Source: Fibrobacter sp. UWR2 | GTDB lineage: Bacteria; Fibrobacterota; Fibrobacteria; Fibrobacterales; Fibrobacteraceae | Direction: 5' to 3' | NCBI RefSeq assembly: GCF_002210285.1 | Contig: NZ_MWQE01000006.1 | Location: forward strand, 1 to 64,000 | Length of the DNA stretch: 64,000 bases | Part shown: positions 1-22,189 of the stretch, piece by piece | Layout of the letters: every line of letters begins with the position of its first letter | How positions within the stretch are numbered: position 1 is the stretch's first letter | The notes under the pieces: model-generated | Database searches by the model: none | The model's input: the letters and a program-made list of their open reading frames with translations, nothing else | What the model was told of the DNA's origin: nothing | Translations under genes and position numbers: made by a program

Positions 1-54
1 CTTCGCCGATGGTACCTGGCCCCCGGGCCCGGGAGAGTAGGGCGCCGCTGGATT
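1..54 (+). rRNA. rrf: 5S ribosomal RNA, 3' end only
   Basis: The first bases read as the 3' third of a bacterial 5S rRNA: a CCGATGGTAC segment, a C-rich/G-rich hairpin, the conserved GGGAGAGTAGG motif, and a closing CGCCGCTGG stretch. The gene begins before the window, so only the tail is visible. A strong terminator follows directly, which fits the end of an rRNA operon. The exact 3' end is uncertain by a few bases because the 5' strand of the closing helix is not in the window. Confidence 0.85.
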
Positions 55-57
55 CAC

Positions 58-96
58 GCCCCGCTTGCCGTAAACGGCGAGCGGGGCTTTTTTTTT
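58..96 (+). terminator. Rho-independent terminator of the rRNA operon
   Basis: A 13-bp stem (58-70 with 75-87, one G-T wobble) closes a TAAA loop and is followed by a run of nine T at 88-96. It lies just after the 5S end. Confidence 0.92.
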
Positions 97-3300: not shown

Positions 3301-4524
3301 AACAAGCTTGTGTGGGGCGGCATCAACATGATGGAACCGCCGGTACCCTATGCGGGCAAGGGCTACATGTACGACCGCGATGGCGACGGCATTGCCGACA
3401 GCCTGTACATACCGTTCAGCGAGCCGTTCGATACCGATATTCCCGATACGCTGGCGTGGTCGTTCGGGGATTCCGCATGGCATGTGACAACGCCGGTAGA
3501 GAACGTGAGGAGCCTGATCCAGAATGGGTCGGACCTCGTAATCACGGCGGACAATCTTGTGGAAAAGGTATTTACTGGCGGCAACAAGGACGTGTACCAG
3601 GGTGGCCTGCATTACCATTACACCTATTGGGACGAGGACAAGGGCGACTCGATTTCGCTTTCGATGAACGGCACCGTCGAGGACCGCATCGGGCCTGTGC
3701 TGCTCAGCGCCATTGTTACGCCGGGTAAGGATAAATTGACGACACTGACCCTGTTGCTGAGCGAGGCGACGCTAGATACGAGCCTGGGTGCTATTGACAT
3801 GTTCGACTTTACGATTTGGCGCATGGGTGAGGAAGTCTCCCAGCAGATGGTTGTCCCGCGCATGACGAGGATGCAGAACGGTGTTCGCTACGACTTGTAT
3901 TTCTATGGCGATGAGACGGCGGTGTTGCCTGCCGTGGGTGATTCCGTGAGGCTTATGCCGGGCGTGATTCGCGACCTGAACGGGAACGTTCCGCACATCG
4001 CGAACCCCTGGGTGAGGATTATCGGTGGGCAGCGTCTGTTGGTAGATGTGCCGGGGCTCGTGACCTTGACCGAGGAGCGCGCCATAGAGACGGCCCAGTG
4101 GGAAAGCAGCGTGACTCCTATGGCGATTCCTCCGGAGCAGTCGCTGAAGGACGCTATCGAACAGACGGGACTTCCTGGCCAGATGCTCAATTACGACTTG
4201 CAGGAACTTGGCCTTACGGCGAGCGATACGGTCTCCATCGATTCCATAAGGATTGTATGGAACGTGAGCTACTTCTCGACGCTCGGGCAGTTCGTGAACA
4301 AGGCCAAGGGTTCGATCGCCTGCTCGGATCCCGTGATATTTAACGGGGACTGCCGCACTAACCCTGCTAAGGTGTTCCTGGCATGGAATGGCCGCAGCGA
4401 CAAGGGAAGGCTCGTCGGGACGGGCGCATACATCTCGAAGCTTGACTGGAAGGTGATGGCGGGCCGCAAGGCGGTCGGCAAGCGCGACGACACCTTCACG
4501 ATGGGCGTGCGCCGCGGAAAATAG
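310..4524 (+). CDS. Secreted fibro-slime domain protein
   Basis: A 1404-residue surface protein. The start is fixed by AAAGGAG at 298-304 and by a clean signal peptide (MKRVCLGVLAVFLLGSIAWA). The N-terminal half repeats short modules built around an F-x-SPW motif. A fibro-slime domain lies at about residues 490-765, with FWLADFTNEDDC, a GDDDVWVFIDN core and a NATGSNFKM segment. The C-terminal part has Ig-like stretches and ends in a FlgD-like segment (FLAWNGRSDKGR) and a basic tail, as in exported Fibrobacter proteins. Fibro-slime domains are known from Fibrobacter and from Dictyostelium slime proteins and are thought to act in adhesion or fibre contact; the ligand is unknown. It is alone between two terminators. 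Confidence 0.88.
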   Translation: MKRVCLGVLAVFLLGSIAWADLTLHFQSPWRDDATRSDYVPHVLGGAGGDYNPHFDATSTTMMKADGDGWFTYTWVGKSLADFQEWMSFNIKGCPNTADYNYNQNNCVPWGSNEFRMGEFFGTETELWLYTKADGSYEKSFMAPGSKIVWFKSPWGNKSLPQMIFGADSVLMRFIPGEASKCGWFYGSVTPTMMSSNPVQSAYFIRYKSPWYAVPADSDAAIDLSVALAASDTIYVDGTSAAPEASLTMGTKGECFDPTRVLHVYHPWRSNTSYRDSAFYITIGNNILNQPTPLAADGKYKYWREISFDDTLVSSPKWNSTMAQVQLLRGQNEWPQHPYFEEADRPLASDLFPAGIYETWMFASTSMGVKDFVYYPLEPKVVRLLSPWDDMSPSMLIVSMDDTVKMGPLPMDRQKDTCGWYEGTYYKHTDEWKVYFKQTFGMDYYSMSGIVGENKPAGEAVYLDSVLKVRDTVWVHPYPVSSSAPLLDVAFPNHLGRCPEMKISAMVLDWAGESYPDNIDVDFGGIYNGNPYTTIWGKNQNGEMDSLKTCGGHVLGMVLPTLVNGLPARVDSLDYPWYQCSAAHEIEKWFVPQVVATDAAGKEYTNATCRDIDLTLDEEGFWLADFTNEDDCNDTINPGFYPVDDFEYLDSAKTVKNPKFDWNVNGCRHNYSFAMKISAQFQYIPGQYFEFRGDDDVWVFIDNRLAVDIGGCHSPVEGAVNLDTMGLEEGKIYPFHIFFSERNATGSNFKMRTSINLQTEKRYFPVEEPTSDGTIEYTILQILTEENLTCDISSVGKVDTTLAESVFILYGQNAVKDGETLKPGLNYGGINISENMAGFVIDTAAIVRARALPPGMYVLRFYLVADPSQSSEVYFEVPEYPLPDIAFADAAGEPFDPTGYNLLLERMGLPENNGSKDTLMAFVSYPVTIMVTYIGQVCADCIITVDLSTTDSLSFLDANGQPITSVTTDSTGYATFYVMGYAAVNDASFTVSGSEVANKLVWGGINMMEPPVPYAGKGYMYDRDGDGIADSLYIPFSEPFDTDIPDTLAWSFGDSAWHVTTPVENVRSLIQNGSDLVITADNLVEKVFTGGNKDVYQGGLHYHYTYWDEDKGDSISLSMNGTVEDRIGPVLLSAIVTPGKDKLTTLTLLLSEATLDTSLGAIDMFDFTIWRMGEEVSQQMVVPRMTRMQNGVRYDLYFYGDETAVLPAVGDSVRLMPGVIRDLNGNVPHIANPWVRIIGGQRLLVDVPGLVTLTEERAIETAQWESSVTPMAIPPEQSLKDAIEQTGLPGQMLNYDLQELGLTASDTVSIDSIRIVWNVSYFSTLGQFVNKAKGSIACSDPVIFNGDCRTNPAKVFLAWNGRSDKGRLVGTGAYISKLDWKVMAGRKAVGKRDDTFTMGVRRGK

Positions 4525-4681: not shown

Positions 4682-7600
4682 ATGAAAAAGGGTTTTCATG
4701 TGTTTTCGTGTTTATGCTTATCGCCGTGTTCGCCGCGATAGCAAACGCCGGTCAAGTTTCGCTGCAGACGGGCGATGATGGCCAGTACATCAATATGCCG
4801 ACCTCCGGGACGGATACACTCGTTATCCCCTCGGGCGTGACGTCGTTCAAGGTGTATGATGATGGCCTTGGCGAGGACGATAATGGTAATCTAGGAAATT
4901 ATAGCAATAGTGCGAACGGGTATCTTGTGCTGAAGGCCCCTGCTGGAAATCTTCTGAAGATTACGGGTTCCATAAGCACAGAAAGCGGATGGGACTATCT
5001 GTATGTTTACGATGGAGATGTTGGTAGTGATATTCTTTTGAATGGGGAGAGTGGTGTATATAATTTAGATGAACTATCAAGCACGAATGCTTTTGCTACG
5101 CTGTATTTCCATTCGGATGAGAGTGTGACTAATTCCGGTCTGGAATTGACTATATCGCTTATTGAAGCGTCTACTCAACATACAATATCGTTAAATAGCG
5201 TTTCGGGAGGATCCGTTAGCAGCGATAAGTTGACAGCGAAAGTTGGTGAAACAGTGACGTTGTCGCTGACTCCAGGCGAAAACAATGTGTCAAACGGCGC
5301 TATGGTTGTTGCTGAGGGCGGAAAATCTGTGCCGGTTTCTGGAGGTGTTTGGTACGCAGGTAACACGGCGACATTTGTTATGCCCAATAGTAGTGTTGAG
5401 GTAACGCCTTCGTTTGTCGGTAAAGACGATGCCTTTATCAATATGCCAGTATCGGGAATAGCATCTTTCAAAATTCCTGCGGGCGTAACTTCGTTCAAAG
5501 TGTATGATGATGGTGGTTCGGATGGAAACTACGGTAATGGTGCTTGGGGATATCTTGTTTTGCAGGCTCCGGAAGGATTGTCTTTGATGGTATCTGGGAA
5601 AGTGAAAACAGAACAGGGGTATGACTATCTTACGGTATACAGCGGTTATATGGATGCGGCTTCTTCATGCGACCAGGGTTGTTACAAACTGATCGAGAGA
5701 GTGGAGGGTGCGAATATTTCCGTTGGGCCTGTTGTCAGTTTTGGAAATGTTATGACACTTTACTTTCATTCGGATGGTGGCGTTTCTGATGACGGTCTTG
5801 ACTTGACCGTATCTATTGTTGATGCGTCGACTCCGCATGCGGTATCGGTTAGCGATGCATCGGGTGGATCTGTCAGCAGTGATAAGGCGACAGCTTATGT
5901 TGGGGATCTTGTGACATTGACTTTGACTCCAGATGAAAACAAATTTATAAGTGGCGTTTCCGTTGTCGATGAGGATGGAAAACCAGTGGAGGTAACGGGA
6001 GGAACTTGGTATTCTGGAAATACAGTAACATTTGTGATGCCTTTAAGCAATGTTACGGTGAATGCCGTATTTGCCGAAAGTATCACGGCGGAAAGCGGAG
6101 CTTTTATCAATATGCCGGTATCGGGGAAAGAGTATCTCTCCATTCCTGCAGGCGTAACTTCGTTCAAGGTTTATGATGATGGTGGTAAGAATGGAAATCA
6201 CAGCGATTATACAGACGGATATTTGGAACTTTCCGCTCCGATGGGGTATTCTTTGGCTGTGTCGGGGACTGTGAATTCTAGTGACGGATGTGGTTATGTT
6301 ACGGTGTATGATGGCGTTAGTGCCAATTACATAATTTTGGATGAAAAGACAGGCTTGAATGAGGATGTTGGGCCGGTTGTCAGCACGGAAAATGTGATGA
6401 CAATTAGATTCTCTTCAAGTTATTGCTCTGTACAAGCGGGCCTTGACTTGACAGTCACTCTTGTGGACAAGACTGCTCCTCATACGATTACTCTGAATAC
6501 TGCTGAAGCAGGGACTATTGCTAGCGACAAGGAATCTGCGGCCTTAGGGGAAGAAGTTACGTTGACATTAACGCCAAACAGCGGCAAGTTTATAGGAGGT
6601 GTTTCTGTTGTTGATGAAAACGGAAATGCTGTGAAAACATCGGATGTCGTGTGGTACGCTAATGACAATACGGTGAAGTTTATTATGCCTTATAGTAATG
6701 TTGTTGTAACGCCGATATTTGTAGATCTCATTACAGCAGAGGGTGGGGCGTATGTTAATATGCCTGTTGACGGAACTATGGAAATAACAATTCCTGCGGG
6801 TGTTGCTTCATTCAATGTTTATGACGATGGTGGTAAAAATGAGAATTATAGCGATGGTGCCAATGGTTCTATTGTACTGACTGCGCCAGAAAACTACACG
6901 TTCTTGGTTACAGGGACGATTAATACAGAACGTGGTTGGGATTATCTGAATATTTATGAAGACAAAAATACTCTTTTAGATGATTTGAGCGGAAGTACTG
7001 ATATTGGAAACATTGCTAGTGAAGAACGTACCATAACTATTAATTTCCGTTCCGATGGAGGTTCTAATTATTCCGGTCTTGATTTGAAAGTTTCATTGGT
7101 AAACTATTCTACACAACATAATATTGATATCGCGAATTTGCAAGGCGGAACGGTTACTAGCAATAAGGCTACAGCCATGTTGGGAGAAACCGTTGAACTG
7201 GACGTGGACTTGAATGCGAATACTTGGCTGAACAGAATCGATGTTGCTGATGAGAATGGATCCGCAATCAGTGTCCAAGGTGGAACATGGTATACAAGCA
7301 GCGCTGCCACATTTACAATGCCTTATTCAGATGTGACTGTTACGCCTGATTATGCGACAACACCTTCTGCGGCGGGAGGGCTTTATGTCAATATGCCCGC
7401 AAATGGTTCAGAACAAATAACGATTCCGAGTGGGGTTTCTTCGTTCAAATTATACGATGATGGCGGTAGAGATGGAAATTATACTGGTGCCAGCGGATGG
7501 TTGGAATTGATTGCGCCCGAAGGAAAAGTTCTCCAAGTAATGGGTTATGGGCAAATGTATGATAATGGAAAGGATGGCGATGGTTAACTTACCATTTACA

Positions 7601-10600
7601 ATGGCGACGATAGCGGTGAAAGACTTTTGGACAGATGGTATCGTTCGACATGGACTGCTATTGACCCCGTTCAAAGCATCGGAAATGTAGTGACAATAGA
7701 GTTTGAAGCCAATTATGGAACTGCCGCGGGCTTTGAATTGACTGTGTCTGTCCTTGATGCTCCGCCACCTCTTACGATAACATATCTCCCGACAACGGGA
7801 GGAACATTGACTGGGCCGACATCTGCGCAATATCGTGAAACTGTGGAAATGGATGTGTCGACTGAAACGGGTTATCTGTTGAGCCGTGTTGATGTTGTTG
7901 GAACAGATGACAATTCCCCGGTTGAAGTAAATGGTGGACATTGGTATTCTGGCAACGAGGTTAGTTTTGTTATGCCTAACAAGGATGTCTCCGTGACGGC
8001 GCGATTTACAGATAACCTCACTGTGGCGGGGGGACTTTATGTGGTTATGCCAACGGACAACAGCAGATTAAAAGTGTTTGTCCCCAATGGAGTGTCGTCA
8101 TTCAAGATATATCGTGATAATTTTAACGACTATTGGGGTCGCGGCTGGATAGAATTGCAGGCCCCAGATGGGTATGTCCTTCAAGTAAGTGGGTTGACGG
8201 ATGACCTTTCTGGGATTTTGTCAATAGAAGAAAACGGTGAGTATGGAGATTATTGTGCCTGGGGTTATTGCGGTACAGACAAGGAAACGATTGTCTCTCA
8301 ATATTCACAGATTAAACTGAGATATGAATCTGATGATCCCAACGATGATCTTGATTTAACAGTGACGCTTATAGATGCAACTACGTCGCATTCTGTTAGA
8401 ATTGCAGAAAATATTGTTGGCGGAACTATTGAAAGCGATCCTACATCTGCTACCGTTCGGGAATGGATTCATTTGACGGCAACGCCTAACGATGGTTATT
8501 TGCTTTCGTCCGTTGATGTGACGGATTCACTTGGAAATTCTGTAGAGGTCGAAAATGGCAAGTGGTATTCGGAAAATCAGGCCGGATTCTATATGCCTGC
8601 CATGTATGTGACGGTTTCTCCGACATTTACAAATGACTTTACCGGATTGTCGGTAAACATGCCTGTATGGAATGACTTAAATGTCGTTGTTCCTGCCGGC
8701 GTGACCTCATTCAAGGTTTACGATGATGGCGGTGCGGACGGCGAATATACTAAAGAGGGTGGAACCGGATATCTTGTGATGACTGCTCCCGAAGGATATG
8801 TATTCCGTGTGTCGGGTACGGTATCTACTGGTTCGGACAATGATTATCTGCGTATTATTGACGGAGATAAATCTGGTGAAATCCTTTTGAATAGCTTGAG
8901 CGGGTACGAGAAAGATGTAGGAACGTATTATAGCACGGGCCGTGTCATGACATTGATGTTCAATACAAGTTATAGTGGAACTGCGTTTGAAGGTTTAGAC
9001 TTGACTGTAGAACTTGTGGATGCCTCTATAGAGCATGCAATAGCACTTACCTATAATAACCTAAGGGGAACCGTTTCTTCGGATAAGTCAACTGCGGCTA
9101 CGGGTGAAACTGTTACATTGACCGCGGTTCCAAGGAGCGACTATTTGCTAAAGGAAATACGTGTTACGGATGCAAATGGAAATTCCAAGAAGGTGACCGG
9201 CGGTACATGGGCGACATCGAATACGGCGACATTTACGATGCCTTATTCGGATGTTAATGCGGAGGCTATCTTTACAGATAACTGGACCTCGTCTGTGCTG
9301 TTTGTCAATATGCCTGCGTCGGGGGATATGACCGTAGATATACCTGAAGGTGTATCCTCGTTCAAGGTCTATGATGATGGTGGATTGAATGCGAGCAGTG
9401 TCTTGGGTGCGGATGGACATCTTGTATTGAGGGCGCCCATTGGGTATAGATTGCAGGCTTTGGGTTCAATAACTGGTCGTTATATGGCGATAGCGAGACT
9501 GTCTATTCACGATGGCGATGCTTCTGCATCTGTAATTAGTGCGGTTAATTCTGAATATATGGGCGGAACGAAGAATGTTACGACTGTGACGAGTTCTGGA
9601 AATGTGATGACTCTAGATTTTTCATGTAGCTCTATGATGGGAAAGGACTTTGGAAATCCGGCAGATATGCAGTTGGTTGTGACGCTTGTTGCGGCTGAGG
9701 CACACGAGGTCGCTTTGGGCAATTATGCTGGTGGAACAGCCTCCATCGACAAGGCAACAGCTTATCCTGGTGAAACGGTGACATTGACGGCTCATTCGGC
9801 GACGGGCTACATTCTTACCGGAGTCAATGTTGTGGACTCGGAAAATAGTCCTGTAAAGACGAGCGAGCCAACGTGGGATGCGGATAATACCGTAACGTTT
9901 GTCATGCCGAACGATGCTGTTACGGTGACGCCCCAGTTTACGGATAACCTGACTGCCGAAGGCGGGCTTTATATAAGGATGCCGTCTGGCGGAAATGCGA
10001 TGCAGTTTACTGTGCCCGAAGGGGTGACTTCGTTCAAGCTCTATGCAGCCGATGTGGATGAATATCATTGCACAAGCGATTATAGTGATAATATCATTGA
10101 ACTTGCTTCTACTAACGGAAGTGGATTCTTGATTGCGGGAAGTATTTCTTCGGATTCGTACTTGAATATCCATGACGGACAGATAGAATGGACGGAATAT
10201 CCTCCGCAGGATAGATACTATTGGGGCTATCAGTCAACAGATATAGGGCAGTATCAGAGTACCGGCGACACGGTAACGATATCCTACAACCGCTGCGAAG
10301 ATCTTGATTTGAAGGTGACTGTTGGCGGTGTTGCTACGAAATATACGGTTACGATTGCTGATGCTGTTGGAGGAACTGTTTCTAGCGATAAGGAAGAAGC
10401 TATTGCCGGGCAGACCATTGGCCTTGAAATTCGCCCCGATGCGACCCACATTTTGGAAGGCATCCGTGTTGAGGATACTGATGGCAATTCCGTTGTAGAG
10501 CTTGGAGCGACATGGTACAATTACGGTAATCCGTCGTTTACCATGCCTTCGACCAATATTACGGTTATCCCGGCATTTACGGATAATCTTACTGCAGAGG

Positions 10601-11841
10601 ATGGCTTGTTTATCAATATGCCGCGCAACGAATGGAATAGCTTGTATGCATCAATTCCTGGTAATGTCAAGTCGTTCAAGATATACGATGATGGTGGTAG
10701 TGATGGCAATTATATTACGCCTGTTAACGGAGAACTCTATATGCATGCTCCCGATGGATACGCCTTTAAGCTGACGGGTTCCATGACGGCATCAGCGGGT
10801 GGTCGCCTTGTAGTTGAAGTTGGAAGTAATGGAGATTATACTACTCATGAGATAGCCAGTGCGGGAGAAGGCCTCGCAACTGATGTCGGTACCATTATGG
10901 GCGATTACATGCAATTGAGGTTCCGGGGATGCGATAATGATAAGGAGTGCTATAGCGCCTAGACATACTCCGGTCTCGATTTGACTATGTCGCTCGTGAA
11001 GTCGGTTCATTATGCGGCTGTCGGCGTCAAAGAAGACGAAGAGGGTAAAATGGTGGCGACAATTGACGGCAACTATGATGATTATGACGATATTGACATC
11101 CCGATGGAGATTCCGGTCGATACGGTCGTGCTGAATCGCGAGTTCCGCGTCAGTGGCAATTCCGCGTATTCGACGCTTACCCTGCCCTTCGGCATTGCTC
11201 GCAACAAGATTGATGGCTTGGCCGATGTAGCTGAGTTTGGCGGTATTGAAATTAATCCGGAAACAGGCAAGAAACAGGTTGTGATGTATCGAGTGGATGA
11301 TGAACTACAGGCGAATACTCCCTATCTTGTGCAGCTGTCTGCAACGTCACTTGTATTCCATGGCGCTGTAGTGCTACAGCCGACTGTGGAACCCGTTACC
11401 AAGGTCGGAGAATGGGAATTCCGTGGAACCTTGGGTAGGATAGAGTGGTACGATGGCCATGAGGATCTTGGCAAGGTTTACGGATTTGCTGCGGGTAGCG
11501 GCGAAGGGGTCTCTCCGGGGCAGTTTGTGAAGGTCGCGTCGGGTGCGTGGATTAGGGCCTTGCGTGCCTATATCATCAAGAATCCTGCATCGTATGCAAG
11601 GGGCCTGGGTGCGGCTGCAACGCCTGCTGCCGTAGATGCGTCTATTCCGAACGAGATGGAAGTTGTGATTGTCGACCGTCCGAAGGATGGTGGCGAAGAA
11701 CAGACAACGGTTATTGGCCGCATAAATACCCGCACGGGCGAATTTACGATGGAACGTAATTACGACCTGAAGGGCCGCAAGCTGAATGGCAAGCCGGCTG
11801 CACGCGGCATGTACTACGGTAAAAAGAAGATTGTAAAGTAA
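4682..11841 (+). pseudogene. Giant CUB / InlB-repeat surface protein, broken by three lesions
   Basis: One reading frame runs from 4708 to 11841 but is cut by TAA at 7585-7587 and TAG at 10960-10962. Homology continues directly across both stops: the TAA falls where other modules have Tyr in a D-Y-L-x-x-Y-x-G motif. The natural start is ATG 4682 (MKKGFHVFS...), which matches the paralogue's MKTRFHVFF, but this frame shifts near 4705-4720, so the signal peptide is split (the rest reads LIAVFAAIANA). Restored, the product has ten CUB-like modules (each with V-x-SFKVYDDGG), nine divergent InlB-B-like repeats, and a C-terminal domain ending YDLKGRKLNGKPAARGMYYG. A shorter start at GTG 4708 or ATG 4714 could still yield a secreted 950-residue fragment. 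The coding DNA is richer in A+T than the paralogue. Assembly errors are the main alternative to real decay. Confidence 0.85.
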
Positions 11842-11854
11842 GGGAGGATTGAAA

Positions 11855-11992
11855 ATGGAAAACGAAATGAAACAGAAAAAAGAATATGTGGCTCCAGAAA
11901 TGGAAGAAATCCGTCTTAATTTTGGCGCATGCCTGTTGCAAAATAGCGAAGAATCGGACGAGCCGAATTCGTGGGGTGGCGAGTTGGACTAG
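11855..11992 (+). CDS. Small acidic peptide with YVAPEMEEIRL motif
   Basis: A 45-codon gene 13 bp after the giant pseudogene and in the same direction. AGGGAGG at 11841-11847 is a near-perfect ribosome site 7 bp before ATG. The peptide is lysine-rich at the start, then has YVAPEMEEIRL, a GACLLQ centre, and a Ser/Glu/Asp-rich tail ending WGGELD. I recall similar small K-x-Y-x-x-P-x-x-E peptides in Bacteroidota and Fibrobacter genomes, usually unannotated and often near surface proteins; that is recollection, not a search. No signal peptide or membrane segment is visible. The layout (leader-like front, single Cys, acidic Gly-rich end) resembles a modified-peptide precursor, but no maturation enzyme is adjacent. 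Function unknown. Confidence 0.7.
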   Translation: MENEMKQKKEYVAPEMEEIRLNFGACLLQNSEESDEPNSWGGELD

Positions 11993-12015
11993 CATAATCT
12001 GACTTGCAAAAGAAA

Positions 12016-12043
12016 GGCGCCTCGTGTAAACGGGGCGCTTTTT
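12016..12043 (+). terminator. Terminator after the small peptide gene
   Basis: GCGCCTCG (12017-12024) pairs with CGGGGCGC (12031-12038), with one G-T wobble and a TGTAAA loop, and is followed by five T. It resembles the terminator at 20236-20261 after the intact ABC-F gene, which fits the duplication described for this region. Confidence 0.85.
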
Positions 12044-12061
12044 GTATAAAAAATATTTAAT

Positions 12062-12158
12062 CTATATCGGGTATTTATCTTTCGCGGCTTCGAGTTCGGC
12101 GCTGGGGACCCTGTCTTCATAATCATCGAGAGTGTCTAGGAGGCTCTCGATGGTTTCT
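12062..12158 (-). pseudogene. Remnant of a second ABC-F ATPase gene
   Basis: Read on the minus strand, these bases encode ETIESLLDTLDDYE, then a short junction (DRVP), then SAELEAAKDKYPI and a stop. The intact ABC-F protein encoded at 20321-22189 has ESIESLIDALEDYE after its second Walker B motif and ends exactly SAELEAAKDKYPI. About 165 intervening residues and the whole N-terminal part are missing. An internal deletion in a former copy explains this best. Orientation matches the intact gene, and the scrap lies just before the second CUB/InlB gene. Confidence 0.82.
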
Positions 12159-12185
12159 TATTTGAAAATAAATGTTGACGGATAC

Positions 12186-12214
12186 TTGACTTTCCTTTTT
12201 GATTGCTATAGATT
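12186..12214 (+). promoter_or_regulatory. Promoter of the intact CUB/InlB gene
   Basis: TTGACT (12186-12191), a 17-bp spacer and TAGATT (12209-12214) lie 54 bp before ATG 12263. Layout and spacing match the promoter of the broken paralogue. Confidence 0.6.
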
Positions 12215-12262
12215 TATTATGATGTTTGCAAAAGCAGCCTATTTAAAAAAGGTAGGTCGGAC

Positions 12263-15200
12263 ATGAAAACAAGATTTCATGTGTTTTTCCTGTTATGCCT
12301 GTTTTTTGCTCTCGTTGTGACGGCGAGTGCAAGGCAACTGACTTTACTGACGGATTCGGAGTCCGGCAAAAAGTATGTCAAAATGCCTGTAACAGGGACC
12401 GACACTCTTATTCTCGATGAAGCCGTCTCGTTCCAGGTGTACGACGACGGTGGAAAAGACGAAGAGTACAGTAATGATGCGGACGCTTATCTTGTCTTGA
12501 TTGCTCCTACAGGGAAGAAGTTCGAGTTAAACGGTTCGCTTACATCGGAGAGCGGCTATGACTACCTGACTATTTACGAAGGCGACCTGGAAACGGGAAA
12601 CCGTCTTCTGGACAGTGCGGACGGTTTCGTGGAGTTTGGGCCGCTTTCCAGTACGGGTAACGAGATAAAGCTGTATTTTCATTCGGACGGGGGCAGTACC
12701 AATTCGGGTATAGATATTGTTGTCGATTTTCCGGATCCGAGCGTGCCGCATTCCCTGGAGGTTCTTGCTGCCGACGGGGGAAGCCTAGTTAGCAACAAGA
12801 GTTCGGCTCTACGGGGTGATACCGTCCTGTTGACTGCGACTCCGGATTCGAGATATGTCCTTTGGAATGTGAATGCAACTAATGCGTGGGGAAAATCCGT
12901 AAAGGTCAATGGCGGAAAATGGTATTCGGGCAACACTGCTACTTTGACGATGCCCTATTCGGATGTTTCCGTGACGCCGGAGTTTGCACTAATAAACGAT
13001 GTCGCGTACGACCTCTCTCTAAACATGCCTAAAGAAGGAACGTTCACGGCCTTTATCCCGGCAGAAGTAGATTCGTTCTGGGTCTACGACGATGGTGGCG
13101 AGTACGATTACTACTCTGAGGATGCAAACGGAAATATCGTATTGAAGGCTCCCGAAAATCACGCCCTGCTGCTGACGGGTTATGTCTGGCTCAATCCGAA
13201 CTGTGCCGGGTTCACGGTATACGATGGTGCTGCTTTGGTGGGAAAGGTCTTGTTTGAGTCTAATACGAGCTATTCCTATGATATAGAGGCGTTGGCAAGT
13301 TCTTCAAACTCGATGACGATCCATTTCCATTCGGGTGAATGCTGGACAGATGGTGGATTGAATTTTAGAATCCTGAATCTGAATTTGAAAAAGAAGTTTG
13401 CGGTTCAGGTCAACGAGGCCGAAAATGGAACTGTCTCGACGAACAAGGCTACCGCGGCATTCAGCGAGAGCGTTACCCTGACGGCGACACCGGAAACGGG
13501 CTATCTCCTATGGAACATGGAGGTGACAGGCGCATCGGAATTCCCGGTCAAGATGGATGGTGGAAAGTGGTACTCGAATAATTCCGCGACAGTCTCGATG
13601 CCCTATGCCGATATTGAGGTTTCGCCCGAGTTCGTGAGCAAGACTACGGCCGAAGACGGGCTCTTTATAAATATGCCGAAGAATGGAACCCTCCAGGCGA
13701 CTATCCCGAATGGCGTGACCTCGTTCAAGGTTTTTGGCGATAAAGGCGAAGATAATTACACTTCTAGGGACGCGAACGGCAATCTCGTTTTGAAAGCTCC
13801 CGAAAACCACGTGCTGCTGGTGACCGGTTCTGCGTATCTCAGTTCGGAATGCGGCGAGTTGCTCTTCTACGAGGGCGAAGGGACGGGTGGCAAGATTCTG
13901 GAGAGCCAGGAGGAGGGCTCCGGGATAGGAACCGTAGCCAGTTCTGCAAACGTGATGACGGTGCATTTCGATGCGGGCTCGTGCTATGACTATTCTGAAC
14001 TCAACTTGCTGGTGAGGAGCATTAACCTTGCCTTGCCGCATACTATCCTGGCGATTGAAGTTGAAGGCGGGACTATAAGCACGAACAAGGCAAGCGCAAA
14101 GCATGGCGAGGTGGTAACCTTGACAGCAAGGCCGGAGTCGGGCTACATATTCAGCGGGTTGAGTGCTGTCGACAGTTACGGGTCAAAGGTGAAGTTCTCG
14201 TTTGACGGGAACATAGCGACGTTCGAGATGCCGCTTTCCGATGTGACCATCCAGCCGATATTCTCTGACAAGCTCTCTGCTGGCGATGGGCTCTTTATCA
14301 ATATGCCCACGCTGGGAACGAAGACCGTTACCATTCCTGACGCAGTGACGTCTTTCCGCGTGTATGACGATGGCGGCGAAAGCAACAACTACAGCAATTC
14401 TTCCGCTGGATACCTTACCATAACGGTTCCCGAAAATCGTATACTGCGCATGTCGGGCGATTTCATTGCAGAGGCGATGAAGGATTCGCTGTTTATCTAT
14501 GATGGGGAAAGAACCGGCAAGCTCCTGTGGAAAAATTACGTGGAGGAAAATGCCCGTATAAGGGAAATTGCTACTTCGGGCAATACGGTCACGCTCTACT
14601 TCAGGTCGAACGAAAGAAAAACGCATAGTGGACTCAGCTTGTATGTCGAAATCGTTGACGCGAAGGAATTGCGCGAGATATCTGTTTCTGATGACGAGAA
14701 TGGAACTATCTCTAGCGACAAGACTGAGGCTAGGTATGGCGAGACCGTTACGCTGACTGCGACGCCGCAGGCGGGCTATTTTGTATGGTATACGAATGTC
14801 ACGAACTGGTCGACGGACGAGTACTTGGATGTCTCCATGAATGGAAACAAGGCGACCTTCAAGATGCCCTATTCTGATGTGTATGCGTGGCCGACATTCA
14901 CGAACAAGCGCTCGATACAGGAAGGTCTCTATGTCGATATGCCGAATTTTGGAATGAGGACAATAAGTATTCCTGACGGCGTGACGTCTTTCAAGGTGTA
15001 TGACGATGGCGGGAAGGACAGTGACTATGGCTATAACGCCGATGGATATCTGGCCTTGACTGCCCCGCAGGGCTATGTCCTGTTGGTGAAGGGCACGATT
15101 GATGCCTATGGCCCGTACGATGCTTTGACAATCTTGGACGGAGCGGGTAGAGATGGCGAGGCCCTTCTGTATAGGGCCAGCGGGAACGGCACGGAGATCG

Positions 15201-18200
15201 ATCCGGTTGCCAGCACCGGCAGGAGCATGACGCTTTACTTCCACTCGGACGGCTCTTCGGTGACATCCGGATTGGATTTGGATGTGGAAGTCTTCGAGGC
15301 GACTACGGAGCATACGATAACGGTTGCTACGGTAGAGGGCGGAACAATGGTGGCCAGCGCCAAGAAGTCCGTCGCGGGCAAGACGATTACGTTGACCGCT
15401 TCTCCGGCAGACAATTATCTTCTGGATAGGGTGGCGGTTGTCGATGCGGACGGTGATTCTGTCTGGATGAGTGGCGGCCGGTGGTATCTGGGCAATGTCG
15501 CTACGATGGTGATGCCTTCCAAGAATGTCTCGGTGACGCCCGTGTTCACGGACAAGCTGACGAGCGAAGGGAACCTCCATATCGATATGCCTAGGAAGGG
15601 TATGGTCAAGGCGACCATCCCGGCCAATGTCTCGTCGTTCAAGGTCTATGATGACGGCGGTAAAGACGGGCCGTATAGCATCGGTGCCAAAGGAACTCTC
15701 GAATTGACGGCTCCCGAAGGTAAGGTCTTTGCGTTGACGGGAACCGTGACAAAGGACCACTATTGTTACCTTGGCGTTTTTGACGGGGATACCAATAAGA
15801 CGGTGCTTATATATGACTCGGAGCGGAATCAGGCGGTTAGTGTCGGGCCGGTTGTATCTACGGGCAACGTGCTGACTGTCCAGTTCCAGGTCGATAGCGA
15901 AGTCGCCCTGGATGGCCTTGACCTGACTGTTTCCGTCATCGATCCTCCGGTAGAACATTCCATAATGGTTGCCTCCGCAGAAGGGGGTGTCCTGGAATGT
16001 TACGAGGAAAAGGCCCTGATGGGCGAAAAAATACATCTCTATGCGTATCCCCAGGAAGGGTATGTTCTGGATAGCATCAAGGTGGAAGGCTCTAGCGGAG
16101 GTCTCGTAGAGGCGGAAAATGACTACTGGTATTCGGACAACAATTCCACCCGTTTCACGATGCCGGATGAAAATGTTGTGCTGACTCCGGTGTTCTCGAA
16201 GAAGACTTCTGCGGAAGACGGGCTGTATATCAACCTGCCGCTGGAGGGGGGGTTGGAGGCGGTAATTCCCTATAGCGTGACTTCGTTCATGGTATATGAC
16301 GATGGCGGCAAGAGCGGCAACTATGGAGACCGGGCTTACGGTTCTCTTGTCATGGTAGCATATGGCAGGCTGTTTGAAATCTCCGGTTCCATGGATACCC
16401 AGGCCTCTCACGATTCCGTGAAGATCTGCGATGCGGAATACGATTATAACTGTATTTTTGAAGGCTCTGGCAAACAGACCGATATCGGAACGTATTTCGG
16501 GACCAATTATTACATGAAGGTTGCCTTCCGTTCCGATGAAAGCGAAAACCGTTCGGGCTTCGCTTTCAGGGTGAACGTCCATGACGCCTCGGTTATGCAT
16601 GCGATAACGGTGGTCAACACGACTGGCGGTAGCGTAGAGTGCGATGTTGACAGTTCCCTGCAGAATACGGATATTGCCCTGTCCATAGTTCCCGAGGACG
16701 GATATATCCTGGATAGCCTTGCGGTTGTAAGCGGCTTGGGGGATACATTGCAATTGCAGGGAGGGCACTGGTATTCTGGCGATACGGCCTGGTTCAGGAT
16801 GCCCTATGCCGATGTGACGGTCACGCCGAGTTTCAAGAAGAAACATACCGCGGAAGACGGCCTTTTCATCGATATGGTTGAAAATATGTGGACGGAGGTC
16901 ATTATTCCCAAGTGTGTCACCTCGTTCAAGGTTTATGACCATGGCGGCAAGGATGGCGATTATGGTAATTTGAGTTATTCGACTTTCGACGCCCTTAGGT
17001 TGATTGCCGCCGAAGGATATGTCATGCAGGTGACGGGAAGCATGAATACCGCGCAGAACAGTGACTACCTGTACATTTACGATGGCGGTGACAATGTCGA
17101 GGAGAATCTCTTGCTGCAAACGAGCGGTGAATCTACCGATATCGGTTCATATTCGACGACAAATCATACCATGCTCATTACTATTGAATCGCAATATTCA
17201 GTTAAGCCCGGTTTTGAACTGACGGTGAATGTCGAAGAAGCGAAGAAGCATTCCATAACCATTGCCGGTGTTACTGGAGGCTCGGTGGAGAGCGACAAGG
17301 CCGAGGCCATAATTGGGGATACGATTCATTTGACGGCCTCGCCGCTTGAGGGTTACCTGCTGAACAGGATAAGCGTGGTGGACGCCCAAGGGAAAAGGAT
17401 AAATGTGACCGGAGGTTCCTGGATTACGGACATGACGGCTTCGTTTGTCATGCCTGCAGAAGATGTGGTGGTGACCTGTGATTATACCAACAAGTGGACT
17501 GCCGCGGGCGGGCTCTTCGCCGAGATGCCGTTAAAGGGCGAAGTGTCCTTTGAAATTCCGGAAGGCGTGACATCGTTCAAGCTCTACGACAATGGCGGCA
17601 AGGATTGGGATTACAGCAGGAGTGTCGACGGAACGTTAGAATTGATTGCACCTGAAGGCTATGTGTTTAAGGTGTCCGGTTCCTGGTCCCTGGGATACTA
17701 TTCCAGCTTCTATATCGAGGATGATGGCTATACCATTATGTATGGAAACTTCTATGCCGATGAGAATGAAGGGGCGCAGACCACCTTGTCCAATAAACTC
17801 AAGGTGCATTTCTATGCGGGTTCGTCTGTCGGCGAGGGCCTGGACTTTACCGTATCGGTCCTTCCGCAGAACGTGATAATAGCGAGATCTTATGACGGGA
17901 TGGTTGATTGCGACAATGTCTCTGCTACAGAGGGTGCCGAGGTATCCCTGACGGCGGAACCGGATGGCGACTATATACTCCACCATATCAGTGTGACGGG
18001 CCTGGATGGGGAAACTATAGAAATGAATGGTGGCAACTGGTATTCCAATAATTTTGCTACCTTCGCCATGCCTTCGCAGAAGGTGAATGTCGTGCCGAGC
18101 TTCGCTTATATCTATGACGATGATGTCGTCTATGAGATTGTAATGCCCAAGACCGGTACGATCAATGCTACGATACCCGATGGGATAAAGTCGTTCAAGG

Positions 18201-19354
18201 TCTATGACGACGGTGGCAGGGATGGCGATTACAGCAACGGTGCTGCAGGATTCCTTGTAATGAGTGCTCCGGAGGGCTATGTTTTCGAGGTGACGGGAAG
18301 CGTGGTCACGGAGCGTGACGGGGATGTCTTTGTCGCCTATGATGGCGACCGCGACGGAAAGGAACTTTTCAGGGCGAGCGGGGAACAGTCGGATGTGGGT
18401 TTCCATATCAGCAGCGGCAATGTCATGACATTCTCGTTTGCTTCCAATACGAGCGAGAGCCTCGAGGGACTTAACCTGAATGTGGCGGTAGTCAAGGCAA
18501 GCACGATTACAAAGTATGCCGCGGTTACTGTTGTCCAGACGATTGATTCGACTATCGCTATTATCGATGGTGCATACCTTGGTGATGATACTATTGCAAT
18601 TCCTGATGATATCGATGTCGATGCGGTCGTGTACAATCGTTCGTTCTCGACCAGCGGGTATTCCACTATCACCCTGCCGTTCGATATTGATGGGTATAAT
18701 GTCGGTGGCTGGAGTGCGGTGCTTGAGTTTGTGGGCATTGGCCTTGACGAAAGGGGTAACAAGATGGTGCGCATGAAGTATGCGTGGTGCGATACGTGCT
18801 ATTCACTTGATGGCTCGCTCAAGGCTTACACTCCCTACATAGTCCGTCTAACCGGTGAAAATCTTTCGTTCTATGGTTCGACAACCCTGAAAGCGACCGA
18901 GGAGCCGATTGTCCGTCAAGGCGATTGGGAATTCCGCGGCACACTGTCGAAGACGCAGTGGAATGTGGGCGATCCCGAACTTGGGTATATCTGGGGATTC
19001 TCGGCAGACAAGACGCAGTCTATCAATATAGGCGACTTTGTACGGGCTGTTGATGGAACGATGGTTCGCCCGCTACGTGGCTATCTAGTTGAGAAAGCCT
19101 CCAACAAGTCTAGAAGATACGCGATTGATATGTATCGCGACCTGGGCGCGAAACCTGTAGAAGATACGCCTTACGAGCGGATGAAGGTTGTGCTTGTGGA
19201 AGATGGCGATGATGGCGTGGAACGCACGACTGTCATCGGGCATATCAATACCCGTACCGGCGAATTCAAGACGGAGCACACCTACGACCTCAAGGGGCGT
19301 AAGGTGAATGGCAGGCCGACGGCCCGCGGTGCTTATTACGGGAAAAGGCGCTAG
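12263..19354 (+). CDS. Giant secreted CUB / InlB-repeat surface protein (2363 aa)
   Basis: The signal peptide (MKTRFHVFFLLCLFFALVVTASA) is followed by ten CUB-like modules, recognisable by V-T-SFKVYDDGG, D-Y-L-x-x-Y-D-G and YFHSDGG...GLDL. Nine divergent InlB-B-like repeats alternate with them (H-x-I...GG-x-V-x-S-x-K, GE-x-VTLTA-P, ...MPYSDV-V-P-F). The last ~290 residues form a separate domain (YSTITLPFDIDG, WEFRGTLSKTQW, RTTVIGHINTRTGEF) ending YDLKGRKVNGRPTARGAYYG plus basic residues. The same C-terminal domain ends the broken paralogue and looks like an export or anchoring tail. CUB and InlB-B modules usually serve binding and spacing; adhesion to plant fibre or cells is inferred. GGTAGG precedes the ATG weakly. 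The gene meets the lipoprotein gene tail to tail with a 4-bp overlap. Confidence 0.88.
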   Translation: MKTRFHVFFLLCLFFALVVTASARQLTLLTDSESGKKYVKMPVTGTDTLILDEAVSFQVYDDGGKDEEYSNDADAYLVLIAPTGKKFELNGSLTSESGYDYLTIYEGDLETGNRLLDSADGFVEFGPLSSTGNEIKLYFHSDGGSTNSGIDIVVDFPDPSVPHSLEVLAADGGSLVSNKSSALRGDTVLLTATPDSRYVLWNVNATNAWGKSVKVNGGKWYSGNTATLTMPYSDVSVTPEFALINDVAYDLSLNMPKEGTFTAFIPAEVDSFWVYDDGGEYDYYSEDANGNIVLKAPENHALLLTGYVWLNPNCAGFTVYDGAALVGKVLFESNTSYSYDIEALASSSNSMTIHFHSGECWTDGGLNFRILNLNLKKKFAVQVNEAENGTVSTNKATAAFSESVTLTATPETGYLLWNMEVTGASEFPVKMDGGKWYSNNSATVSMPYADIEVSPEFVSKTTAEDGLFINMPKNGTLQATIPNGVTSFKVFGDKGEDNYTSRDANGNLVLKAPENHVLLVTGSAYLSSECGELLFYEGEGTGGKILESQEEGSGIGTVASSANVMTVHFDAGSCYDYSELNLLVRSINLALPHTILAIEVEGGTISTNKASAKHGEVVTLTARPESGYIFSGLSAVDSYGSKVKFSFDGNIATFEMPLSDVTIQPIFSDKLSAGDGLFINMPTLGTKTVTIPDAVTSFRVYDDGGESNNYSNSSAGYLTITVPENRILRMSGDFIAEAMKDSLFIYDGERTGKLLWKNYVEENARIREIATSGNTVTLYFRSNERKTHSGLSLYVEIVDAKELREISVSDDENGTISSDKTEARYGETVTLTATPQAGYFVWYTNVTNWSTDEYLDVSMNGNKATFKMPYSDVYAWPTFTNKRSIQEGLYVDMPNFGMRTISIPDGVTSFKVYDDGGKDSDYGYNADGYLALTAPQGYVLLVKGTIDAYGPYDALTILDGAGRDGEALLYRASGNGTEIDPVASTGRSMTLYFHSDGSSVTSGLDLDVEVFEATTEHTITVATVEGGTMVASAKKSVAGKTITLTASPADNYLLDRVAVVDADGDSVWMSGGRWYLGNVATMVMPSKNVSVTPVFTDKLTSEGNLHIDMPRKGMVKATIPANVSSFKVYDDGGKDGPYSIGAKGTLELTAPEGKVFALTGTVTKDHYCYLGVFDGDTNKTVLIYDSERNQAVSVGPVVSTGNVLTVQFQVDSEVALDGLDLTVSVIDPPVEHSIMVASAEGGVLECYEEKALMGEKIHLYAYPQEGYVLDSIKVEGSSGGLVEAENDYWYSDNNSTRFTMPDENVVLTPVFSKKTSAEDGLYINLPLEGGLEAVIPYSVTSFMVYDDGGKSGNYGDRAYGSLVMVAYGRLFEISGSMDTQASHDSVKICDAEYDYNCIFEGSGKQTDIGTYFGTNYYMKVAFRSDESENRSGFAFRVNVHDASVMHAITVVNTTGGSVECDVDSSLQNTDIALSIVPEDGYILDSLAVVSGLGDTLQLQGGHWYSGDTAWFRMPYADVTVTPSFKKKHTAEDGLFIDMVENMWTEVIIPKCVTSFKVYDHGGKDGDYGNLSYSTFDALRLIAAEGYVMQVTGSMNTAQNSDYLYIYDGGDNVEENLLLQTSGESTDIGSYSTTNHTMLITIESQYSVKPGFELTVNVEEAKKHSITIAGVTGGSVESDKAEAIIGDTIHLTASPLEGYLLNRISVVDAQGKRINVTGGSWITDMTASFVMPAEDVVVTCDYTNKWTAAGGLFAEMPLKGEVSFEIPEGVTSFKLYDNGGKDWDYSRSVDGTLELIAPEGYVFKVSGSWSLGYYSSFYIEDDGYTIMYGNFYADENEGAQTTLSNKLKVHFYAGSSVGEGLDFTVSVLPQNVIIARSYDGMVDCDNVSATEGAEVSLTAEPDGDYILHHISVTGLDGETIEMNGGNWYSNNFATFAMPSQKVNVVPSFAYIYDDDVVYEIVMPKTGTINATIPDGIKSFKVYDDGGRDGDYSNGAAGFLVMSAPEGYVFEVTGSVVTERDGDVFVAYDGDRDGKELFRASGEQSDVGFHISSGNVMTFSFASNTSESLEGLNLNVAVVKASTITKYAAVTVVQTIDSTIAIIDGAYLGDDTIAIPDDIDVDAVVYNRSFSTSGYSTITLPFDIDGYNVGGWSAVLEFVGIGLDERGNKMVRMKYAWCDTCYSLDGSLKAYTPYIVRLTGENLSFYGSTTLKATEEPIVRQGDWEFRGTLSKTQWNVGDPELGYIWGFSADKTQSINIGDFVRAVDGTMVRPLRGYLVEKASNKSRRYAIDMYRDLGAKPVEDTPYERMKVVLVEDGDDGVERTTVIGHINTRTGEFKTEHTYDLKGRKVNGRPTARGAYYGKRR

Positions 19355-20106
19355 CGCAGTTTACGGCTCTGGAATTCTTTGGGCATGGTCTCGAGTACCC
19401 ACTCGCCGCCCTGACAGATCTCGTAGCCGACTGAAGGTACGACCCTGGTTGCACCTTCATTTTCTGCAGTGCATTCCAGCACGGCTTCTTGCCAGCCGTT
19501 GCTGGTGCATTGTAGGGGGATTGTCCAGCCGATTATTACGCCGATATTGTCGGCGGAACATTCCATAATGTTCTCGAGCATCCATAGGCCTTTTGAGCAA
19601 TTCAGAAGCTCGATGACGTTTTCCGAGATGTACTCGACCTTATGGGCGTTTTCTGTACAAACGGGTTGCGCGCTGGAACTGGACGACTCGATGCTGCTGG
19701 ATGATTTTGCGCTGGAACTTGACTTCGCGGAGCTGGAGGAAAGTACGATGCTGGACGAGGAGGGTGTCTTTGAACTGGAAGAAAGTGCCTTGCTAGACGA
19801 CGACTTGGCGCTGGACGAGGATTTCGCACTACTCGAAGACCTTGCGCTGGAACTAGATTTTGCCTTGCTGGAGCTGGAAACGGATTTTTTTGAACTGGAG
19901 GAAATCGTCTTTGTGGAACTGGAAGAACCCTTCCTTGAACTGGAGGACGATACCTTGCTGGAACTGGATGAGACCTTTTGGGAGGAGGAGGTTAATCCTT
20001 CGTGTTCGTCGGGGCCGGCGCCCGTGCTGCTGTCATCGCAGGCAGAGAATGTAAGCCCCAATAGGGCGGACATGGTCAAGGCAGTTACGATTTTCTTGAT
20101 ATGCAT
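19351..20106 (-). CDS. Serine-rich-linker lipoprotein
   Basis: A 251-residue lipoprotein with lipobox LTFSAC near residue 23. A long low-complexity linker of serine runs broken by Lys/Ala spans about residues 38-150. A C-terminal domain of about 100 residues has several Cys (VCTEN, LLNCSKG, MECSADN, LQCTSNGW, LECTAEN, EICQGGEWV) in evenly spaced pairs. Serine linkers of this kind are a hallmark of Fibrobacter envelope proteins, where they may be glycosylated spacers. The C-terminal units (C-x-N-G-W / C-x-G-G-E-W) resemble short repeats seen in Fibrobacter lipoproteins; no enzymatic motif is visible. AAAGGTG precedes the start. Role unknown, probably cell surface. Confidence 0.8.
   Translation of the reverse strand: MHIKKIVTALTMSALLGLTFSACDDSSTGAGPDEHEGLTSSSQKVSSSSSKVSSSSSRKGSSSSTKTISSSSKKSVSSSSKAKSSSSARSSSSAKSSSSAKSSSSKALSSSSKTPSSSSIVLSSSSAKSSSSAKSSSSIESSSSSAQPVCTENAHKVEYISENVIELLNCSKGLWMLENIMECSADNIGVIIGWTIPLQCTSNGWQEAVLECTAENEGATRVVPSVGYEICQGGEWVLETMPKEFQSRKLR
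19675..19990. repeat. Low-complexity Ser-codon repeat tract
   Basis: Degenerate GGA/GCT/GAC-rich units, read as Ser codons on the minus strand, fill the linker of the lipoprotein gene. There are no regular spacers or conserved repeat units, so this is coding low complexity. Confidence 0.75.
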
Positions 20107-20235
20107 GGGGACACCTTTGGGGTTGATATCAATAAATATATATTAATCGCCCCAAAAAGCAAAGAAAATAGTGATAGAGTTTTTTTTGCGAAAAAGCGTG
20201 TGTCCCAGATGACGAACGAACGGTCTACAGTGAGC

Positions 20236-20261
20236 AAAAAGCGCCTCGTCTTAACGAGGCG
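20236..20261 (-). terminator. Terminator of the ABC-F gene
   Basis: Perfect 7-bp stem CGCCTCG (20242-20248) with CGAGGCG (20255-20261). Read on the minus strand it is followed by GC and five T. It lies 60 bp after the ABC-F stop; the rest of 20107-20320 is AT-rich and carries no gene I can support. Confidence 0.82.
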
Positions 20262-20320
20262 TGTTTGCGAGAGTGAGCGCATGCCGGAGTAATTTAACAC
20301 CGGGGTGTAGCGCGAACGGT

Positions 20321-22189
20321 CTAAATCGGGTATTTATCCTTGGCGGCTTCGAGTTCGGCACTAGTCCGCTCCCATTCCGCATAGAGGCTGTCAACAAGGT
20401 TCTTGTTGTCGTCCATCTCTTTGGCGATGGAGGTGATGGCGTTCCCGTCGCCGGATTCCGAGGCGGTCACGAGTTTTGCTTCGAGTTCGCCGCCGAGGGC
20501 TTCTGCCTTCGCGATGTCTTCTTCGAGTTTTGCAAGTTTCTTTTCGAGGGGCTTGATGACCTTGCTGCGCTCGGCGATGTAGTCGGCGCGTGCCTTGCGG
20601 TCTTCCTTGGCGCGGGGCGCAGCATTCTCTGCGTCAGTTTTCACGTCGATATTCGAGACCTTGATGTTTGCGGATTCGCTACCGCCGGGCTTCTTTTCGG
20701 ATGCCCAACCCACCTTCTCGAGGAAGTCCGCGTAGGTGCCTTCGAATATGCGGCACTTTCCGCCATCGAATACCACAAGCCTGGTGGCGAACGCGTGCAG
20801 GAGTTCTTCGTCGTGGGTCACCACCATCGCGGTGCCTTCGTAATCTTCCAGCGCGTCGATGAGGCTCTCGATGCTTTCCATGTCCAGGTGGTTCGTCGGT
20901 TCGTCGAGTAGCAGCATGTTGCAGGCGCTTGCGAGAATCTTCCCGAGGAGCACGCGGCTCCGCTCGCCACCACTGAGTACCTTCACCTTCTTGAGGGCGG
21001 CATCGCCGCTGAACATCATGAGGCCGGCAAGCCCGCGGGCACGGCTCTTTTGCGAGACTTCCGCGATGGCGGTTGCGATTTCTTCTTCGACGGTGTTGTC
21101 GAGGTTCAGTCGGTTGATATTTGTCTGCCCGAAATAGTTTATCTGTAGGTTAGGGTTGTGGCTGATTTCGCCGGCGGTGGGTTGCAGTTCTTTTGCAATC
21201 AGGTTCAAGAGCGTCGTTTTACCGCGGCCGTTCGGGCCTATGACGGCAATGCGGTCACCCTTGAAAACTTCCATCGTCAAATCGGTGATGAGTTCCGGAC
21301 CGCCATCATACGCAAACGAGAGTCCCTTGATCTGCAGCATTCTCTTGCCAGGGAAGGGTGCTTCGGTAAAGCTGAAATCCAGGTTGCGTTCGTGGGTGAG
21401 GCGCTCGCCGTTCGCAAGCTTTGCGGCGGCCTTGATCTTGGACTGCACCATGGCGGCCTTTGCTGCCTTGTAGCGGAATCGCTCGATAACCTTCTCGAGC
21501 TGTTCCTTCTTCTTTGCCTCGTTCTCTTGCGTGCGCTGCGCGACTTCCTCTTCTTCGGCAATCGTCTCGCGCAGCTTTTCTACTGTACCCTTCACCTTGC
21601 GGATTTTGTGGCGGTGAATGCCGGCGGTGTGCGTGCAGACCTCGTCCATAAAGTGATGGTCGTGCGTAATCAACAGCACTTCGCCCTTCCAGTTGCGCAG
21701 GAACCTGCTGAGCCAGCGCATCGACACGATATCGAGGTAGTTCGTCGGTTCGTCGAGCAACAGCATGTCGGGCTCGCTCGCCAAGACTTTTGCGAGGTTC
21801 AGGCGGATCTGGAAACCGCCCGAAAGGAGCATCGGGCTCTTGTGCATGGATTCCTCGTCGAACCCGAGGCCGAACAGAATCGCTTCTACCTTGTGTTCTT
21901 CCAGCCAGCCGTCTTCGTTGGGCTTCAGTACACTGCAGGCCTCCTCGTGCACGGTCGCGTGCGTGAAGTTCAGGTGCTGCTGCAAGTAGCCGAGTGTGTA
22001 TTTCTTGGGAATATCGATGGAACCGCCGTCGAGGCATTCCTGCCCGAGAATCATCTTGAACAGCGTAGACTTGCCGCAGCCGTTACGACCCACGAGACCC
22101 ACGCGCTCATGGTCGCCCACGAGCAGGCTCGCACCGTCCAAAAGGACTTGCACGCCGAATGATTTGGAGACGTTCTGGATTTGAATCAC
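20321..22189 (-). CDS. ABC-F family ATPase
   Basis: A 622-residue soluble tandem ABC ATPase without membrane segments. ABC1 has Walker A GRNGCGKST (35-43), signature LSGGFQIRL and Walker B LLLDEPTNYLD. ABC2 has GPNGRGKTT, LSGGERSRV and LLLDEPTNHLD. A charged linker (about 230-300) joins them, and a C-terminal coiled coil (about 530-622) resembles Uup/Etta-type proteins. ABC-F proteins act on ribosomes or DNA-linked processes; Uup-like is the closest layout. The start is GTG 22189, where homology begins (IQIQNVSKSFG); the open frame extends upstream but looks non-coding. No clear Shine-Dalgarno site is visible. A truncated relic of a sister copy lies at 12062-12158. Confidence 0.9.
   Translation of the reverse strand: MIQIQNVSKSFGVQVLLDGASLLVGDHERVGLVGRNGCGKSTLFKMILGQECLDGGSIDIPKKYTLGYLQQHLNFTHATVHEEACSVLKPNEDGWLEEHKVEAILFGLGFDEESMHKSPMLLSGGFQIRLNLAKVLASEPDMLLLDEPTNYLDIVSMRWLSRFLRNWKGEVLLITHDHHFMDEVCTHTAGIHRHKIRKVKGTVEKLRETIAEEEEVAQRTQENEAKKKEQLEKVIERFRYKAAKAAMVQSKIKAAAKLANGERLTHERNLDFSFTEAPFPGKRMLQIKGLSFAYDGGPELITDLTMEVFKGDRIAVIGPNGRGKTTLLNLIAKELQPTAGEISHNPNLQINYFGQTNINRLNLDNTVEEEIATAIAEVSQKSRARGLAGLMMFSGDAALKKVKVLSGGERSRVLLGKILASACNMLLLDEPTNHLDMESIESLIDALEDYEGTAMVVTHDEELLHAFATRLVVFDGGKCRIFEGTYADFLEKVGWASEKKPGGSESANIKVSNIDVKTDAENAAPRAKEDRKARADYIAERSKVIKPLEKKLAKLEEDIAKAEALGGELEAKLVTASESGDGNAITSIAKEMDDNKNLVDSLYAEWERTSAELEAAKDKYPI

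Follow-up and report, generated by a model that had tools for sequence, protein, structure and literature searches.

Judged from its sequence, a 97-base scrap of DNA in Fibrobacter sp. UWR2 is a genuine remnant of the 3' part of an ABC-F gene. Probably it is the 3' end of the resident gene, stranded when a segment was added that carried a newer giant surface-protein gene (here referred to as GIANT), a lipoprotein gene, a repeat and an ABC-F tail of its own. What had been told as a duplication is here recast as gene turnover, a tiny fossil pointing to the gain and loss of giant surface genes next to a conserved one. Fibrobacter is a cellulose-degrading gut genus, and its surface proteins likely matter for fibre attachment. 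The stretch analyzed (the window) comprises 64,000 nucleotides and corresponds to bases 1-64000 of contig C6 in a genome of 3.28 Mb. We used 80 Fibrobacter genomes for gene searches and read about 70 ABC-F loci, 64 of them with enough flanking sequence.

The intact ABC-F gene and its remnant

ABC-F proteins are ribosome-associated. The intact gene of the window (20321-22189, minus strand) encodes 622 amino acids (Pfam ABC_tran, E 1.8e-49). It is present in 78 of the 80 genomes, one in each except where assemblies split it, and is single copy at high identity. In the G001 group, ABC-F-like genes at a distance of about 12-16 kb are paralogs of 31-36% identity and were set aside as candidates for scraps.

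When 11990-12260 was searched against the whole genome with blastn, we obtained two matches to the ABC-F gene. The outer piece (12061-12103, minus strand) holds the last 13 codons (SAELEAAKDKYPI) and the stop codon, with 91% identity over 43 nt to 20320-20362 (E 4.4e-10). The inner piece (12112-12157, minus strand) corresponds to residues 438-451 (ETIESLLDTLDDYE), with 80% identity over 46 nt to 20833-20878 (E 6.2e-5), and its counterpart in the intact gene lies 513-558 nt from the stop. Translated from the minus strand, the scrap reads in frame as ETIESLLDTLDDYE-DRVP-SAELEAAKDKYPI-stop, so that residues 438-451 and 610-622 follow each other in their natural order, strand and frame, separated by four unrelated residues (DRVP). 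These matches bear out the first-pass annotation, which had placed an ABC-F fossil at 12062-12158 from the letters alone; the deletion that it described is also there, though its size of about 165 residues is corrected to 158 (residues 452-609). Homology stops at residue 438, where the next inward codons are AAA TAA instead of the expected DM. As a control, the 3' part of ABC-F at each of the 64 loci was searched against the reversed flank of the same gene, and the best E value was 0.043, compared with 8e-10 for the window. The scrap differs from its own genome's ABC-F gene at 13 of 89 sites. Its best matches are scattered over G043, G070, G063 and the genome's own gene; 89 nt are too short for placement in a tree, and we dropped the attempt to read an origin from the nearest neighbour for the same reason.

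Two giant surface-protein genes

The window opens with what appears by eye to be the 3' end of a 5S rRNA (1-60, plus strand); the identical sequence opens the G064 contig, and an Rfam search reported none. The locus therefore seems to lie directly after an rRNA operon. It is followed by a gene for a PA14-domain surface protein (310-4524, plus strand; PF07691, E 1.5e-7), which in this genus usually stands directly next to ABC-F. Next comes a giant surface-protein gene (4682-11841, plus strand) that ORF finders split into three genes. In fact, alignment to an open gene of 2400 codons in G070, at 79% nucleotide identity, shows a single pseudogene with a 1-nt deletion at 4703, a TAA at 7585 and a TAG at 10960. 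By sequence comparison this upstream giant is the ortholog of the giants abutting ABC-F in G070, G018 and G064, and the older resident of the locus.

Behind it stands a small gene of 45 codons (11855-11992, plus strand; MENEMKQKKEYVAPEMEEIRLNFGACLLQNSEESDEPNSWGGELD), which is conserved 3' of giants of the same family in six other genomes, with identities of 75% in G018, G064 and G070, 44% in G009 and G019, and 55% in G073. The small gene is intact despite the dead giant upstream. A terminator-like palindrome (12016-12043) follows, and its orthologous site in G018, G070 and G064 lies directly before the intact ABC-F gene; it is conserved in these relatives with a different stem sequence. The stretch 11998-12058 matches the same three genomes at 84% over 61 nt, beside their ABC-F 3' end. 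In all three, intact ABC-F thus comes after the older-giant ortholog, the small gene and the terminator, which puts the scrap of the window at the position of the resident ABC-F tail.

On the other side of the scrap, the region 5' of GIANT (12159-12262, plus strand) has no match in the other 69 loci; it contains a putative promoter, TTGACT-15-TATAGA, recognized by eye at 12186-12212. GIANT itself (12263-19354, plus strand) is intact and encodes 2363 amino acids with a CUB domain (PF00431, E 4e-17) and InlB-like B-repeats (PF18998, E 3.7e-62). Among the 80 Fibrobacter genomes we found no ortholog or relative of GIANT above 42% identity and no donor sequence. Convergent with GIANT is an open reading frame for a serine-rich lipoprotein (19351-20106, minus strand), whose matches in the genus are only partial and serine-rich. 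These two are the only open reading frames between the scrap and ABC-F, and there is no room for an integrase gene.

The locus in related Fibrobacter genomes

In about 30 of the approximately 70 loci the PA14 gene directly faces ABC-F, while a giant gene lies in between at eight loci (G000, G009, G018, G019, G064, G065, G070 and G073). Two species markers were used to place the window's genome. By rpoB it is nearest to G018 and G064 (about 96%), with the rpoB of G070 not found; by a YgiQ-family gene it is nearest to G021 (94%, this genome having a second, more distant copy) and G070 (93%), followed by G064 and G018 (90%). These two genes replaced RecB, which appears too patchy in the genus. 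The window has RecD/RecB/RecC-like genes at 28916-37543, and among the 80 genomes only G078, G018 and G062 have close recB DNA (82-89%).

Similar scars were found in two other species. In G009, a 366-nt scrap of the ABC-F tail is fused to the final portion of a PA14 gene (codons 1078-1404), followed by a giant and then by intact ABC-F. In G064, a 40-nt ABC-F tail is fused to the 3' part of a lipoprotein gene, the one located before the PA14 gene in G043 and G040, again followed by a giant and ABC-F. The common anatomy is a stub of the resident ABC-F tail, a donor end that sometimes starts inside another gene, a giant and a complete ABC-F gene. The scraps end about 40 nt (G064), 366 nt (G009) and at least 558 nt (window) from the stop and are joined to unrelated sequences, as expected of an illegitimate joint at variable positions. 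Among the 64 loci with enough flank, scraps occur in three of the eight giant-bearing loci and in none of the 56 others (P about 0.0013). Weak ABC-F-like matches in the flanks of G015 and G023 were discarded as chance, their translation being lipoprotein and apparently noncoding DNA.

The individual histories seem to differ. In G009 the tail and the body of the intact gene are both G043-like and it is the scrap that is the odd sequence, so the direction of exchange may be different there. On the outer side its scrap abuts a YggS-like gene (by eye), an arrangement unique among the loci read, which suggests that the outer side has been rearranged too; we considered YggS beside ABC-F as an ancestral order and rejected it, as it is seen in no other locus. 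Most of the G064 giant is 95-100% identical to that of G018, which is free of scraps, and the history of G064 therefore has more than one step.

The 3' region of the intact ABC-F gene is itself a mosaic between species, with a breakpoint at about 20496 (maximum chi-square, permutation p 0.0005 for the window against G070/G064 and G070/G043). Every significant breakpoint near this position has G070 as a parent, so that G070 instead of the window may be the recombinant; without G070, the p values are 0.18 (G018/G043) and 0.28 (G019/G043). Beside the ABC-F stop, 106 nt at 20218-20322 are 100% identical to G043, compared with about 90% for ABC-F coding DNA and 90% for rpoB, which could reflect either a recent exchange or the spread of a repeat. 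As far as sequence comparison goes, the mosaic tails support exchange at this locus.

Origin of the remnant

The resident order would have been rRNA operon, PA14 gene, older giant, small gene, terminator and ABC-F. We infer that DNA from another Fibrobacter came in and that its right side paired with ABC-F, giving a homologous crossover inside the gene, while its left end would have been joined illegitimately inside or beside the resident ABC-F tail. The newcomer's tail would have kept ABC-F complete; the old tail, stranded 8.2 kb off, would have decayed and lost residues 452-609. The older giant would have lost its function afterwards, through one frameshift and two stops. The anatomy shared by the three species is what would be expected if one side recombined by homology in ABC-F and the other was joined illegitimately. 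A ComEC homolog in the genome permits, but does not demonstrate, uptake of DNA as the presumed route of entry.

As the first-pass annotation reported, there are two instances of the order giant, terminator and ABC-F end, and the two giants are homologous over their full length. We therefore considered whether these parts had been copied together long ago in tandem, the giants and terminators having since diverged, and judged this quite unlikely. Copies of one block are expected to be equally similar, yet the giants share 36% amino acid identity and the unconstrained scrap retains 80-91% nucleotide identity. The small gene is found after the first giant alone and the lipoprotein gene after the second alone, and the sister species have single giants to which the upstream one is orthologous. 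Moreover, the scraps of G009 and G064 have no giant on their outer side, which goes directly against the proposal that such scraps come with a duplication. The terminators (12016-12043 and 20236-20261) do resemble each other as had been claimed, albeit weakly (27 nt, 85%, on the minus strand, the site being palindromic; E 0.05 in the genome), but this is no evidence of duplication either: the first was inherited with the small gene, and the second is part of a 14-copy dispersed repeat. Duplication of the region as a block was accordingly rejected for its unequal divergence and unshared parts. An artefact of assembly, or a chance match, is hardly credible. The region is rich in repeats and giant genes, and the contig begins at the rRNA operon; however, the E values of the two pieces are 4e-10 and 6e-5, two independent assemblies show the like anatomy, and the 13 differences from the genome's own ABC-F gene leave no place for a read-level copy.

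Other kinds of insertion can also be envisaged. Genomic islands occur at the 3' end of prfC, for example. They have likewise been described at the 3' ends of other conserved genes, as SGI1 at trmE and the dusA islands, where insertion brings a replacement tail (PMC8409611). A replacement tail with the displaced tail as a direct repeat, as found here, is the anatomy of such an island, and an integrase might have inserted the element and then been lost. This is very unlikely, since the scraps end differently in three species, with no fixed core site or junction, and the interval in the window contains no integrase, its only genes being the giant and that of the lipoprotein. It is also conceivable, though unlikely, that the outer and inner pieces (43 and 46 nt) stem from different events, the inner one having come already decayed with GIANT and 12104-12111 being the true recombination joint. 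The inner piece is more diverged from the nearest intact ABC-F gene (8 of 46 sites, against 2 of 43 for the outer) although its region is normally more conserved (mean nearest distance 1.8 vs 3.3), and loci of the G064 type suggest that scars can travel with giants. On the other hand, the private changes (3 vs 0) do not differ significantly (Fisher p 0.24), and the frame and natural order are kept across both pieces.

Stranding of the resident tail by an added segment remains the probable course of events. A wider proposition, which we put forward tentatively and regard as somewhat doubtful, is that, throughout Fibrobacter, the interval between the rRNA operon and ABC-F is a permanent slot in which giant surface proteins are exchanged without an integrase. 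Homology would be provided on one side by the rRNA operon and on the other by the ABC-F tail, and every exchange that failed or was additive would be recorded by ABC-F scraps. For other genomes, ABC-F tail scraps provide a simple marker by which past exchanges can be found.

Comparison with known systems

In naturally transformable bacteria, homology-facilitated illegitimate recombination (HFIR) joins incoming DNA at one end by homology and at the other illegitimately (PMC3240628). The Fibrobacter locus resembles it in having a presumed homologous end, here ABC-F, and an illegitimate end, with DNA added and a resident stub that can remain; it differs in that here there are only scars across species and no observed event. 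As no relative of GIANT above 42% was found in the 80 genomes, we say that the locus works like HFIR, and not that it is a proven member. We know of no transformation in Fibrobacter.

Kirchberger and colleagues proposed HFIR for the type VI effector arrays of Vibrio cholerae, with their displaced remnants and orphan 3' ends, and rejected duplication on grounds similar to ours (PMC5361080). In both systems, large variable genes have been added again and again next to a conserved anchor, with remnants of earlier residents left behind. However, the cargo here is a giant surface protein instead of an effector-immunity pair, the remnant is the tail of the anchor gene, and the displaced material decays. 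The process has been proposed before, for these arrays, and the Fibrobacter locus is a new example of it; a literature search of incomplete coverage returned no earlier report of such an exchange in Fibrobacter.

The repeat beside the ABC-F stop

The hairpin at 20236-20261 that had been taken for a second terminator lies in a copy (20205-20325, plus strand) of a dispersed non-coding repeat of about 98-118 bp. The genome has 14 copies, others being at C1:525658, C1:194487, C1:1035176, C2:268762 and more, and at ABC-F the repeat is tandemly repeated in G064, G070 and G043. It is absent at the scrap. When 12044-12063 is set against 20205-20325, the scrap resembles an empty site of the repeat, which in relatives separates the terminator from the ABC-F stop. 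No Rfam match was found for the repeat, which is possibly an undescribed structured RNA or a small mobile repeat. Its hairpin varies on both sides between copies (CGCCTC/GAGGCG, CGACTC/GAGTCG, GCCCTC/GAGGGC and CCCCTG/CAGGGG), its 3' half is conserved (GAGAGTGAGCGC..CCGGAGTAATTTAA..GCGCGAACGGTCT), and it folds better than shuffled sequences (z -2.6).
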